NCBI RefSeq assembly: GCF_003014575.1 | Contig: NZ_PYGF01000004.1 | Coordinates: 62,001-126,000, forward strand | Reading direction: 5' to 3' | Source: Cecembia rubra | GTDB taxonomy: Bacteria; Bacteroidota; Bacteroidia; Cytophagales; Cyclobacteriaceae | DNA length: 64,000 nt | Shown here: positions 5,084 through 29,000 of the stretch, piece after piece | Numbering within the stretch: position 1 is the first letter of the stretch | Layout: each line of letters opens with the position of its first letter | Notes under the pieces: model-generated | Databases searched by the model: none | What the model saw: the letters and a program-made list of their open reading frames with translations, nothing else | Told to the model about the DNA's origin: nothing | Program-made: the position numbers and the translations under genes

Positions 5084-5114
5084 CCCAATTCCAATTTTAG
5101 ATATCCGAATTCAA

Positions 5115-5232
5115 TTCTTATTTCTTGATTCTTGTCTCTTTGTCACGTCCTGGATTTACTTGACAATTGTTTCTTGCCTCTTGTCTCTTGATTCTTGCCT
5201 CTCGCTTCTAATCTCTCGCTTCTCGTCTCTAC
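5115..5232 (-). repeat. Heptanucleotide-period repeat in the ettA 3' region
   Basis: On the minus strand this is a purine-rich degenerate array with a 7-base period; units include AGAGACG, AGAAGCG, AGAGGCA, AGAATCA, AGAGACA and AGAAACA. The phase is interrupted at about 5143-5167 and then resumes with AGAGACA and AGAATCA. It starts at the ettA stop codon and ends before the terminator, so it should be part of the ettA mRNA. Similar arrays occur after tsf (23484) and beside hslV (28966). Confidence 0.7.
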
Positions 5233-6908
5233 CTAAGCTTCTTATACTTAATCCGCTTCGGAGTCACATCACCCAAGCGCTTTTTCTTATTTTCCTCGTA
5301 ATCAGAGAAGTTGCCCTCAAACCAATATACTTGGGAATCTCCTTCAAAAGCCAGGATATGCGTACAGATCCTATCCAGAAACCAACGGTCGTGGGAAATA
5401 ATCACTGCACAACCACCGAAGTTCTCCAATGCCTCTTCCAAAGCCCTCAGGGTGTTCACATCCAAATCGTTGGTAGGTTCGTCCAAAAGCAATAAGTTGC
5501 CGCCTTCCTTCAAAGTGATCGCCAAGTGAACCCTGTTGCGCTCACCGCCAGAGAGCACGCCCAACTTCTTCTCCTGATCTGAACCTGCAAAATTGAATTT
5601 GCTGACATAGGCCCTTGCATTGACTTCTTTATTCCCCAGTTTGATCAGTTCATTTCCCTCCGAAATGGCCTGATATACCGTCTTATTGGGATCCAAGTGG
5701 TCATGCTCCTGATCTACATAAGCCAGTTTTACTGTCTCTCCAATTTCAAAATGTCCGGCATCGGGCTTTTCCTGCCCTGTAATCAATTTGAAGAGGGTGG
5801 ATTTACCAGCACCGTTTGGTCCGATAATCCCGACGATGCCACCTTGTGGCAGGCTGAAGGAAAGGTTTTCAAAAAGTAATTTGTCTCCATAAGCCTTGGA
5901 CACGCCATTCACCTCGATCACTTTTGCTCCCAATCTTGGTCCTGGGGGAATGTAAAGCTCCAATTTAGCTTCTTTTTCTTTGGACTCTTCGGAGACCAGT
6001 TTGTCATAAGCAGAAAGGCGGGCCTTCCCTTTGGCCTGTCTGGCTTTTGGCGCCATTCGAATCCACTCCAATTCCCTCTCCAAGGTCTTCTGACGTTTGG
6101 ATTCGGTTTTTTCTTCCTGCTTTAATCTGTCCTGTTTTTGTTCCAACCAGGAAGAATAGTTGCCTTTCCAGGGAATGCCTTCTCCCCTATCCAATTCCAG
6201 AATCCAGCCAGCCACATTATCCAGGAAATAACGGTCGTGGGTCACGGCAATTACCGTTCCCTTGTATTGCTGTAAATGCTGCTCTAACCAAAGCACAGAC
6301 TCCGCGTCCAGGTGGTTGGTCGGTTCATCCAGCAACAACACATCCGGTTCTTGTAACAAAAGTCTGCAAAGTGCTACCCTTCTTTTCTCCCCTCCGGAAA
6401 GATTGCCAACAATTGCCTCGCTGGGTGGAAGTCTCAGGGCATCCATGGCCCTTTCCAGCATGGTATCCAATTCCCAGGCATTGGCAGCATCCAATTTCTC
6501 CTGAACTTCCCCCTGCTTTTGGATCAATTTGTCCATGGCGTCAGGATCTTCCATGATGGCAGGATCCATGAATTTTTCATTGATTTCCTCAAATTCTTTG
6601 AGCAGAGCAACTGTCCCTGCAACTGCTTCCTCCACTATTTCCTTTACGGTTTTGGAAGGGTCCAATTGGGGTTCCTGCTCCAACATGCCCACAGTATAGC
6701 CCGGGGACCAAACCACTTCTCCAATAAAGTCTTTGTCTACACCTGCTATGATCCGTAAGAGGGAAGATTTACCTGAACCATTAAGACCCAAAACACCAAT
6801 TTTGGCTCCATAGAAAAAAGAGAGGTAAATATCTTTCAAAACTTTTTTCTGTGGCGGGTAAATTTTTGACACCCCTGCCATAGAAAATATGATTTTTTCG
6901 TTGCTCAT
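5229..6908 (-). CDS. ettA: Energy-dependent translational throttle protein EttA (ABC-F ATPase)
   Basis: Soluble ABC-F ATPase of 559 residues, matching the usual EttA length. EttA binds the ribosomal E site and gates entry into elongation according to ATP/ADP. Two nucleotide-binding domains are visible: Walker [10 protein letters not shown] (41-49) with [12 protein letters not shown] and [11 protein letters not shown], then GPNGAGKST with [12 protein letters not shown] and [11 protein letters not shown]. The linker between them is charged and helical. There are no membrane segments, which excludes a transporter. The N-terminal [19 protein letters not shown] is characteristic of EttA rather than Uup or YheS. 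It is monocistronic and divergent from the DUF349 gene. Confidence 0.93.
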
Positions 6909-22566: not shown

Positions 22567-22648
22567 TTACTAAACCTGTCAGGCCTTGTAATCCAAACAG
22601 GTTCCACACTTAAAGAAAAAAGTTTAATCGCATAAATTGACTAAAACA

Positions 22649-23479
22649 ATGGCTATTACTGCACAAGAAGTTAACAAACTGAGACAAATGACCGGTGCCG
22701 GTATGATGGACTGTAAAAAAGCCCTTACTGAAGCTGAAGGAGATTTTGAAAAAGCTATCGATATTCTAAGGAAAAAAGGTCAGAAAGTTTCTGCTTCCAG
22801 AGCGGACAGAGAAACCAAAGAAGGTACTATCGTCACCAAGGTAACTGCTGATGGCAAAACCGGCTTGTTGCTTTCTTTAACCTGTGAAACTGACTTCGTA
22901 GCTAAAAATGAAGAGTTCGTTTCTTTTGCAAACACAGCATTGGAACTGGCTTCCAACAATAACGCTACTTCTGTAGCTGATATCTTGGCCCTACCATTCG
23001 AAGGAATTACTGTAGGTGAAAAAATCGTTGAATTGACCGGTAAAATCGGTGAAAAAATCGAAATCTCCCACTTTGAAGTGGTAAACGGTGAAGCTGTGGT
23101 TCCTTACATCCACTCCAATGGTAAATTGGGAGTATTGGTAGCCCTTATCAACACCAATGGTGCAGCAGTTGAAGAAGCTGGAAAAGACGTAGCAATGCAG
23201 ATTGCTGCAATGAACCCAGTAGCTGTTGATAAAGATGGCGTAGATGCTACTACTGTACAAAGAGAAATCGAAGTTGGTAAAGAGCAGGCAAGACAAGAAG
23301 GTAAGCCTGAAGAGATGTTGGAAAAAATTGCATTGGGCAAATTGCAGAAATTCTACAAAGAAAACACTTTGTTGAGCCAAGCATTCGTAAAAGACAACTC
23401 TTTGTCTATTGCTCAGTACCTGGATAAAGTAAGCAAAGGAATGACTGTTGCAGCTTTCAAAAGGGTATCTATAGGATAA
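22649..23479 (+). CDS. tsf: Elongation factor Ts
   Basis: Guanine nucleotide exchange factor for EF-Tu, 276 residues. The N-terminal UBA-like part reads MAITAQEVNKLRQMTGAGMM with the signature DCKKALTEAEGDFEKAI; the core contains LSLTCETDFVAKNEEF. I start at the ATG at 22649; an in-frame TTG twelve bases earlier is not needed. It follows rpsB in the usual order but is separated by a terminator. The stop codon is followed at once by a heptanucleotide repeat. Confidence 0.97.
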   Translation: MAITAQEVNKLRQMTGAGMMDCKKALTEAEGDFEKAIDILRKKGQKVSASRADRETKEGTIVTKVTADGKTGLLLSLTCETDFVAKNEEFVSFANTALELASNNNATSVADILALPFEGITVGEKIVELTGKIGEKIEISHFEVVNGEAVVPYIHSNGKLGVLVALINTNGAAVEEAGKDVAMQIAAMNPVAVDKDGVDATTVQREIEVGKEQARQEGKPEEMLEKIALGKLQKFYKENTLLSQAFVKDNSLSIAQYLDKVSKGMTVAAFKRVSIG

Positions 23480-23483
23480 TATT

Positions 23484-23550
23484 AGAAGCAAGAAACAAGA
23501 CTCAAGAAGCAAGACTCAAAGCTCGTCCCGAAGGATTTCTGGAAAGCAAG
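23484..23550 (+). repeat. Heptanucleotide-period repeat in the tsf 3' region
   Basis: Five perfectly phased 7-base units, AGAAGCA, AGAAACA, AGACTCA, AGAAGCA, AGACTCA (23484-23518), then a degenerate continuation with AGCAAGACTTGAG near 23543. It starts four bases after the tsf stop and lies before the terminator at 23569. Same consensus (AGAnnCA) as the arrays after ettA and near hslV. Confidence 0.75.
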
Positions 23551-23568
23551 ACTTGAGAAATTGGATAT

Positions 23569-23600
23569 AAAGCTGACTTCGAAAGGGGTCAGCTTTTTTT
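23569..23600 (+). terminator. Terminator of tsf
   Basis: Stem AAAGCTGAC (23569-23577) / GTCAGCTTT (23588-23596), 10-base loop, followed by TTTT. About 90 bases after the tsf stop, with the heptanucleotide repeat in between. Confidence 0.88.
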
Positions 23601-28415: not shown

Positions 28416-28958
28416 TTATTTCACCACTTTCTCCACTACCAAATTATGATTGGTGTAGATGCAGACATCGGCAGCTATCCCCAAACTCTCTCTGACCATT
28501 TCTTCGGCAGATAGCTGAGGTGCAAATTTCTTTAATGCCCTTGCCGCAGACTGGGCATACATACTTCCTGAACCAATGGTTGCGATTTCCATATCGGGTT
28601 CAATTACATCGCCCGTTCCGGAAATGATCAGAATATCCTGACTGTCCGCCACAATCATCATGGCTTCCAATCTGCTTAGCATCCTGTCCATTCTCCACTC
28701 CTTGGCCAACTCTACTGCAGCACGCTTCATATTATTGCCATATGCTCCCAACTTTTCCTCAAACTTTTCCAAAAGTGTAAAAGCATCAGCAGTTGATCCA
28801 GCAAAACCGGTAATTATTTTTCCACCCTGAAGTTTCCTGATTTTATTTACAGAACTTTTGGCTACCGTATTTCCCAAAGTCGCCTGACCATCTGCTCCGA
28901 TAACTACTTCTCCATTATGCTTGATGGCCACAACGGTGGTTGATTTTATTTTTTCCAT
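28416..28958 (-). CDS. hslV: ATP-dependent protease peptidase subunit HslV
   Basis: Proteasome-like threonine peptidase, 180 residues, which forms a double hexamer and works with HslU. The catalytic N-terminal threonine lies in STTVVAIKHNG; the gene encodes MEKIKS ahead of it, a short propeptide that must be removed, unlike the single Met in E. coli. Other family segments are VVIGADGQATLGNTV, GFAGSTADAFTLLEKFE and IGSGSMYAQSAARAL. hslU is not adjacent. Directly upstream is a 7-base-period repeat. Confidence 0.95.
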   Translation of the reverse strand: MEKIKSTTVVAIKHNGEVVIGADGQATLGNTVAKSSVNKIRKLQGGKIITGFAGSTADAFTLLEKFEEKLGAYGNNMKRAAVELAKEWRMDRMLSRLEAMMIVADSQDILIISGTGDVIEPDMEIATIGSGSMYAQSAARALKKFAPQLSAEEMVRESLGIAADVCIYTNHNLVVEKVVK

Positions 28959-28965
28959 TTTTTTA

Positions 28966-29000
28966 AGACTTAAGATTCAAGACGAAAGATTTTAGATGAA
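28966..29000 (-). repeat. Heptanucleotide-period repeat upstream of hslV
   Basis: On the plus strand the units AGACTTA, AGATTCA, AGACGAA, AGATTTT and AGATGAA follow each other in phase. More degenerate than the arrays near ettA and tsf. It lies directly before the hslV start codon, within its presumed leader. Confidence 0.55.

Follow-up and report, generated by a model that had tools for sequence, protein, structure and literature searches.

Heptamer arrays of the AGANNYN type in Cecembia rubra and close relatives and their placement at stop codons

Directly behind the gene encoding elongation factor Ts (tsf), the genome of Cecembia rubra carries five heptamers in perfect phase. A reading made from the sequence alone had assigned them to a repeat family AGANNCA seen at three loci. 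This raises the question whether such a family exists in the genome as a whole and what could place arrays with a 7-nt step behind genes.

Heptamer arrays in the window

In the window, i.e. the whole stretch of 64,000 nt analyzed here, the tsf array (23484..23518, + strand) consists of the units AGAAGCA, AGAAACA, AGACTCA, AGAAGCA and AGACTCA and starts 4 nt past the stop codon of tsf (22637..23479, +; TIGR00116, E 4.8e-78). The remainder of the span first ascribed to it (23519-23550) is non-array, except for the first bases of two extra units, AGACTTG and AGAAATT (23549..23562, +), which are out of phase with the array. The related species G001 has an array of other units at the same place, and the equivalent units AGACTTG and AGGAATT adjoin it directly. 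The tsf array is located between the stop codon and an intrinsic-terminator-like hairpin read from the sequence (AAGCTGAC...GTCAGCTT, then T; 23570..23600, +). The same hairpin is present in G001.

Behind ettA (5229..6908, -; TIGR03719, E 1.9e-288) there are nine units on the minus strand (5168..5230), AGAGACG, AGAAGCG, AGAGATT and AGAAGCG followed by AGAGGCA, AGAATCA, AGAGACA, AGAGGCA and AGAAACA. Two nucleotides of the TAG stop codon are already part of the first unit. A second block comprises the four units AGAGACA, AGAATCA, AGAAATA and AGAATTG (5112..5139, -). G001 carries an array after ettA at the same place, too. The sequence-only reading had described five phased units after tsf and about ten degenerate ones after ettA, with the purine-rich strand as mRNA strand at both genes; this was borne out, both arrays being sense to their genes. 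Its third locus, five units before hslV, held only in part. A period-7 stretch is indeed present (28963..28997, +) upstream of hslV (28416..28958, -), but it is weak, is antisense to hslV and fits the three-unit AGANNCA pattern only with 2 mismatches.

At up to 3 mismatches the window contains 15 three-unit matches compared to 3.4 expected, and none of 100 shuffles reached 15. A search of the window against Rfam 15 gave no match above the gathering score and thus no known structured RNA family. Gene calls were obtained with a self-built model of codon usage, for which the window served as training set, and not with a published gene finder.

Genome-wide occurrence, placement and strand

Two tests of the family had been named beforehand, a genome-wide excess over a control and a strand bias. 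The first was passed: the C. rubra genome (G000, 4.75 Mb) contains 106 exact three-unit AGANNCA matches, compared to 0 for a reversed-pattern control. From the listed exact matches (100 of the 106) 37 array clusters were built, all of which were retrieved. Exact AGANNCA matches were also detected in 11 of 59 sampled genomes of relatives and in 42 of 395 genomes across the phylum. The arrays are therefore a real and widespread heptamer family in C. rubra and its close relatives. A four-unit scan of named genomes returned, among the matches listed, Mariniradius, Mongoliitalea, Belliella, Aquiflexum, Algoriphagus and Pararhodonellum, which we take to be Cyclobacteriaceae, and, likewise among those listed, Mucilaginibacter, Chryseobacterium, Flavobacterium and scattered unrelated taxa.

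The strand bias was assessed on 168 arrays of at least four units in retrieved loci of G000, G001, G021 and G002, with 20 stretches each of G021 and G002 drawn from longer lists. Since the loci were selected for holding exact arrays, all frequencies refer to array loci; unbiased sampling was confined to the window and to 20 stretches of G001. Intergenic arrays made up 154 of the 168, and 14 were located in coding sequence. In 51 of the 154 intergenic arrays the start falls between -20 and 15 nt relative to a sense stop codon (24 of 60 in G000, 8 of 32 in G001, 12 of 27 in G021 and 7 of 35 in G002), compared to 2.9-4.1% for random intergenic placement. The antisense mirror of this placement occurred in 1 of 154. 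The second test was thus passed as well. The bias is near complete only for arrays at stop codons and moderate over all arrays, with 68 sense and 40 antisense ones between co-directional genes; antisense arrays include the five tandem copies of a single locus (L038). Between convergent genes all arrays amount to 24 sense and 2 antisense, and 10 arrays lie between divergent genes.

Among 50 stop-anchored arrays with at least three units downstream, 25 have the stop codon itself in register with their units (1 in 7 expected, p 2.4e-9). In register means that TAG stands one base, or TGA or TAA two bases, before a unit boundary. The data from these loci lent no support to an association with terminators (14 of 51 in the presence of an array and 130 of 383 in its absence).

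Hairpins formed by inverted arrays were considered as a general feature and rejected as rare, an inverted array within 200 nt downstream being present in 2 of 51 cases. Such hairpins were noticed by eye at L038, at L042 and in the tsf region of G426, which belongs to another family. There (L194), AGA-type heptamers form a long, nearly perfect inverted repeat behind the tsf stop codon. L038 (4008-4444, G000:C8) consists of tandem copies of about 82 bp, each with a sense AGA array and then an inverted one, directly upstream of a tRNA-Arg gene (CCT anticodon, L038 4490-4562). At the same tRNA-Arg gene G001 has a single array (L202).

Dispersed arrays, patchy among related genera and located at gene ends, might also be expected from the cargo or relics of a mobile element of the IS, MITE or REP type that targets such ends. 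We regard this as very improbable, as inspection of the 37 clusters of C. rubra by eye revealed neither a constant flank nor terminal inverted repeats nor a target duplication, and inverted partners are as rare as stated above.

In the chromosome of G001 the arrays are also biased to the G-rich strand. The third-position skew calculated from 20 evenly placed stretches of G001 changes its sign near 1.2 and 3.5 Mb, and 25 of 32 AGA clusters of this genome lie on the G-rich strand (p 0.002). Coding bases in G001 show no bias to this strand (about 47%). The gene dnaA is located at 17 kb, away from the skew change near 1.2 Mb, so that the G-rich strand rather than an origin-based strand is what was measured.

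For at least 13 of the 37 C. rubra clusters, G001 has an array with the same position and orientation, the counterparts of the others being mostly outside the comparison. Whole units were gained or lost between the species while the place of the array was kept (e.g. a three-unit difference at L044/L217), and at L042/L215 even the stop codon differs (TGA in G000, TAG in G001). After tsf, G001 was the only one among 28 relatives with an AGANNCA array; in G021 and G022 this position is occupied by AGANNTT-like units. In G007 (L185) tsf is followed by about ten copies of a perfect CTATCAC repeat, unlike the degenerate AGA arrays. At two places in G001 (L199, L205) an identical long sequence lies downstream of the array, which looks like one insertion sequence that landed in or beside two arrays.

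Composition of the units and possible origin of the arrays

The units are better described as AGANNYN than as AGANNCA, with a core Y-N-A-G-A recurring every 7 nt and variable bases between. Arrays open with AGANNCG, AGANNTT or AGANNCT and then shift to AGANNCA. In the four genomes ordered unit pairs with non-A before A outnumber those with A before non-A by 572 to 45, the last unit of each array being omitted from this count. Thereby the units closest to the gene are those of the AGANNCG type, which have a C-rich complement. The complement of the arrays, TCTTGNN, is pyrimidine-rich with TC every 7 nt, and both the order of the units and the direction of the arrays at stop codons would suit a role in which this complement loads Rho or a cold-shock protein and stops antisense transcription entering the 3' end of the gene. 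Binding of one cold-shock protein per heptamer is cited in the accessible part of PMC4679880. For arrays between co-directional genes there is no obvious source of antisense transcripts, and we consider such a role unlikely.

In AGA arrays found by their period alone, some phases accumulate more changes than others (variance 1.85 vs 1.10 in G000; likewise in G001, G021 and G002), whereas in other heptamer families changes are spread evenly over the phases, with no mask of fixed and variable positions. The even spread would be expected from plain neutral microsatellites, i.e. perfect heptamer repeats that arose by slippage and are now decaying. Perfect AGANNCA arrays do occur in many unrelated bacteria. 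When the 80 loci with a printed title were sorted by this title, repeats with one NN were, among the matches listed, the commonest class outside Bacteroidota (22 of 43 arrays). Viral arrays, again among the matches listed, were mostly perfect, too (one NN in 49, two in 20, three or more in 14). Within Bacteroidota, however, at least three NN variants were present in 26 of 41 arrays compared to 7 of 43 in the others (titled loci among the matches listed). Since a decaying perfect repeat yields no phase mask, no order of subtypes and no stop-codon register, this explanation is already strained for the AGA arrays and appears improbable.

We favour, with a probability of roughly 0.4, an explanation of the arrays as self-propagating satellites of heptamers, nucleated at stop codons by means of the YNAGA core. 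New units would arise by replication slippage or template switching with a 7-nt step, the pentamer YNAGA providing the short homology that permits strand misalignment. Copying would continue for units that retain the pentamer, whereas their two intervening bases would be free to drift. This pentamer is also present, in the sense direction, where a purine comes after a stop codon (TAG-A, TGA-GA, TAA-GA). Arrays would therefore nucleate at such sites and could extend downstream, whereas extension upstream would destroy the gene. No host function is needed. Register, sense direction, bias to the G-rich strand, turnover between species and species-specific spectra fit this explanation. In particular, the NN spectra differ among the four genomes (chi-square p 5e-22), as predicted by concerted turnover.

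Other observations fit self-propagating satellites less well. Copying from one locus to another was not seen directly. Adjacent units in G000 are not more alike than within-array shuffles (0.221 vs 0.230). One-unit slippage was therefore rejected as not visible in this genome, which counts against satellites. Similarity at lag 3 (21 nt), which speaks for satellites, was found in 25 of 60 cases in G000 compared to 0.25 expected, possibly driven by in-frame arrays of histidine-kinase-like genes. AGA arrays lie in frame inside such paralogous genes at L031 (four arrays) and L045 (one array) of G000, the units differing between the paralogues; the label histidine-kinase-like is a reading of the motif alone and not the result of a family search. 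Nor is the order of subtypes accounted for by satellites.

The main alternative, held tentatively possible, is that the arrays are functional elements of the 3'UTR. A putative oligomeric protein binding RNA or single strands would read AGA/Y every 7 nt past the stop codon, leaving the two bases between uncontacted, and might protect the mRNA end or tune termination. The concentration of changes by phase in all four genomes and the kept place and strand in a second species despite changed units are explained in this way about as well as by satellites. The orientation of the arrays at stop codons (51 sense, 1 antisense) and the fact that tsf and ettA are core translation genes agree with it, too. 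Its weak points are the patchy distribution, most relatives being devoid of AGA arrays, the 14 copies in coding sequence and 40 antisense ones between co-directional genes, and the lack of a consistent link to terminators.

Arrays of a second type, GTACNAN, occur in the same five genomes of the family as those of AGANNCG (G000, G001, G002, G021 and G022), with at least 15 GTACNAN matches in each. G038 has GTACNAN as well and G009 a perfect AGANNCG repeat, so that both types are found in 6 of 35 genomes each. GTACNAN heptamers follow ettA in G021 and G002, and in the latter the array begins directly after the stop codon. GTACNAN lacks YNAGA and in G001 shows no leading-strand bias (8 of 15). 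Both its position right after a stop codon despite the missing core and the missing strand bias count against self-propagating satellites, and since the other heptamer families have no fixed/variable mask, the argument from the core covers the AGA family alone. In modular 3' regions (L214 in G001, L230 in G000) AGANNCG units are followed by AGANNCA units, in G001 only, and then by GTACNAN.

Further heptamer families co-occur in array-bearing genomes, and 7 together with its double, 14, is the conspicuous period in the range from 5 to 14. Both this and the co-occurrence of unrelated families such as GTACNAN count in favour of satellites. In array-bearing loci 51-70 stretches per genome had period 7, compared to 1-17 with period 6, 7-19 with period 14 and 0-5 with periods 5 and 8-13. 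Period 7 was found 10 times in the 50 kb of intergenic DNA covered by the 20 unbiased stretches of G001, and periods 5, 6 and 8 were found 2, 3 and 1 times, respectively; period 4 also reached 10 and periods 9-15 were at 0. A general 7-nt periodicity of intergenic DNA was rejected, as lag-7 autocorrelation is confined to the arrays and mostly disappears once they are masked. It is conceivable, if rather doubtful, that stop-registered and subtype-ordered arrays are written or read by a machine with a 7-nt step, be it a slipping polymerase or an oligomeric nucleic-acid-binding protein; AGANNYN, GTACNAN and the others would then be dialects of one 3'-end code. Because the arrays are tied to the stop codon, its register and the sense strand and, in one chromosome, to the G-rich strand, the 7-nt step is open to testing, the choice being between replication as the source of such arrays and a reader of heptamer steps in 3'UTRs. 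If their lengths vary between strains, the arrays could also be used as fast strain markers.

Comparison with known heptamer repeats

Heptamer repeats have been on record for years in distant bacteria. The sequence-only reading had likened the 7-base period to that of cyanobacterial STRR, which we take heptamers such as GGGGA(C/T)T of Nostoc to be, and had noted a different consensus. This is correct for the published heptamers compared, from which AGANNYN is distinct. According to the accessible part of PMC4692102, the cyanobacterial heptamers (e.g. GGGGA(C/T)T of Nostoc) share with the AGA arrays the period of 7 and a dispersed, mostly intergenic location, but have another consensus and in Nostoc a larger intragenic share and a same-strand share of 18%. 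Simple sequence repeats of phase variation, in which identical units switch a gene by their number, differ from the arrays described here, whose units vary within arrays and which are intergenic in 154 of 168 cases.

The claim that no such family had been described in Bacteroidota has to be narrowed. TAACTGA heptamer repeats are reported from Beggiatoaceae, cyanobacteria and five Bacteroidetes (MacGregor 2015, PMC4679880). They are intergenic direct repeats of patchy distribution like ours, but in the part of that source available near-matches are rarely repeated and the repeats lie mostly just upstream of start codons, whereas degenerate AGANNYN units lie at stop codons. No published description of the AGANNYN family was recognized in the literature searched, and the novelty seems to be confined to this consensus, heptamer repeats as such being already known in Bacteroidetes.

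The closest known kind are the heterogeneous heptamer arrays (GGGANTN)n of Xanthomonas (Rehm et al. 2015, PMC4692102). As far as the accessible part of that paper goes, both consist of heptamers with fixed and variable positions and are mostly intergenic (about 90% in Xanthomonas). The Xanthomonas arrays keep a shorter distance to the ORF in front of them (28 nt) than to the one behind (160 nt), comparable to the location of about a third of ours (51 of 154) near a sense stop codon. In both cases the same gene pairs carry arrays in two species, with variable length and sequence. Unlike AGANNYN, the Xanthomonas units contain a G-tract core able to form G-quadruplexes. Their arrays are present in similar shares on both strands, whereas ours follow the sense strand at stop codons, and convergent inverted pairs are numerous in Xanthomonas (70 cases in Xcc) but rare here. 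Compared to what is described for Xanthomonas in the part available, the AGA arrays are set apart by the ordered subtypes of their units and by a stop codon in register with the repeat.
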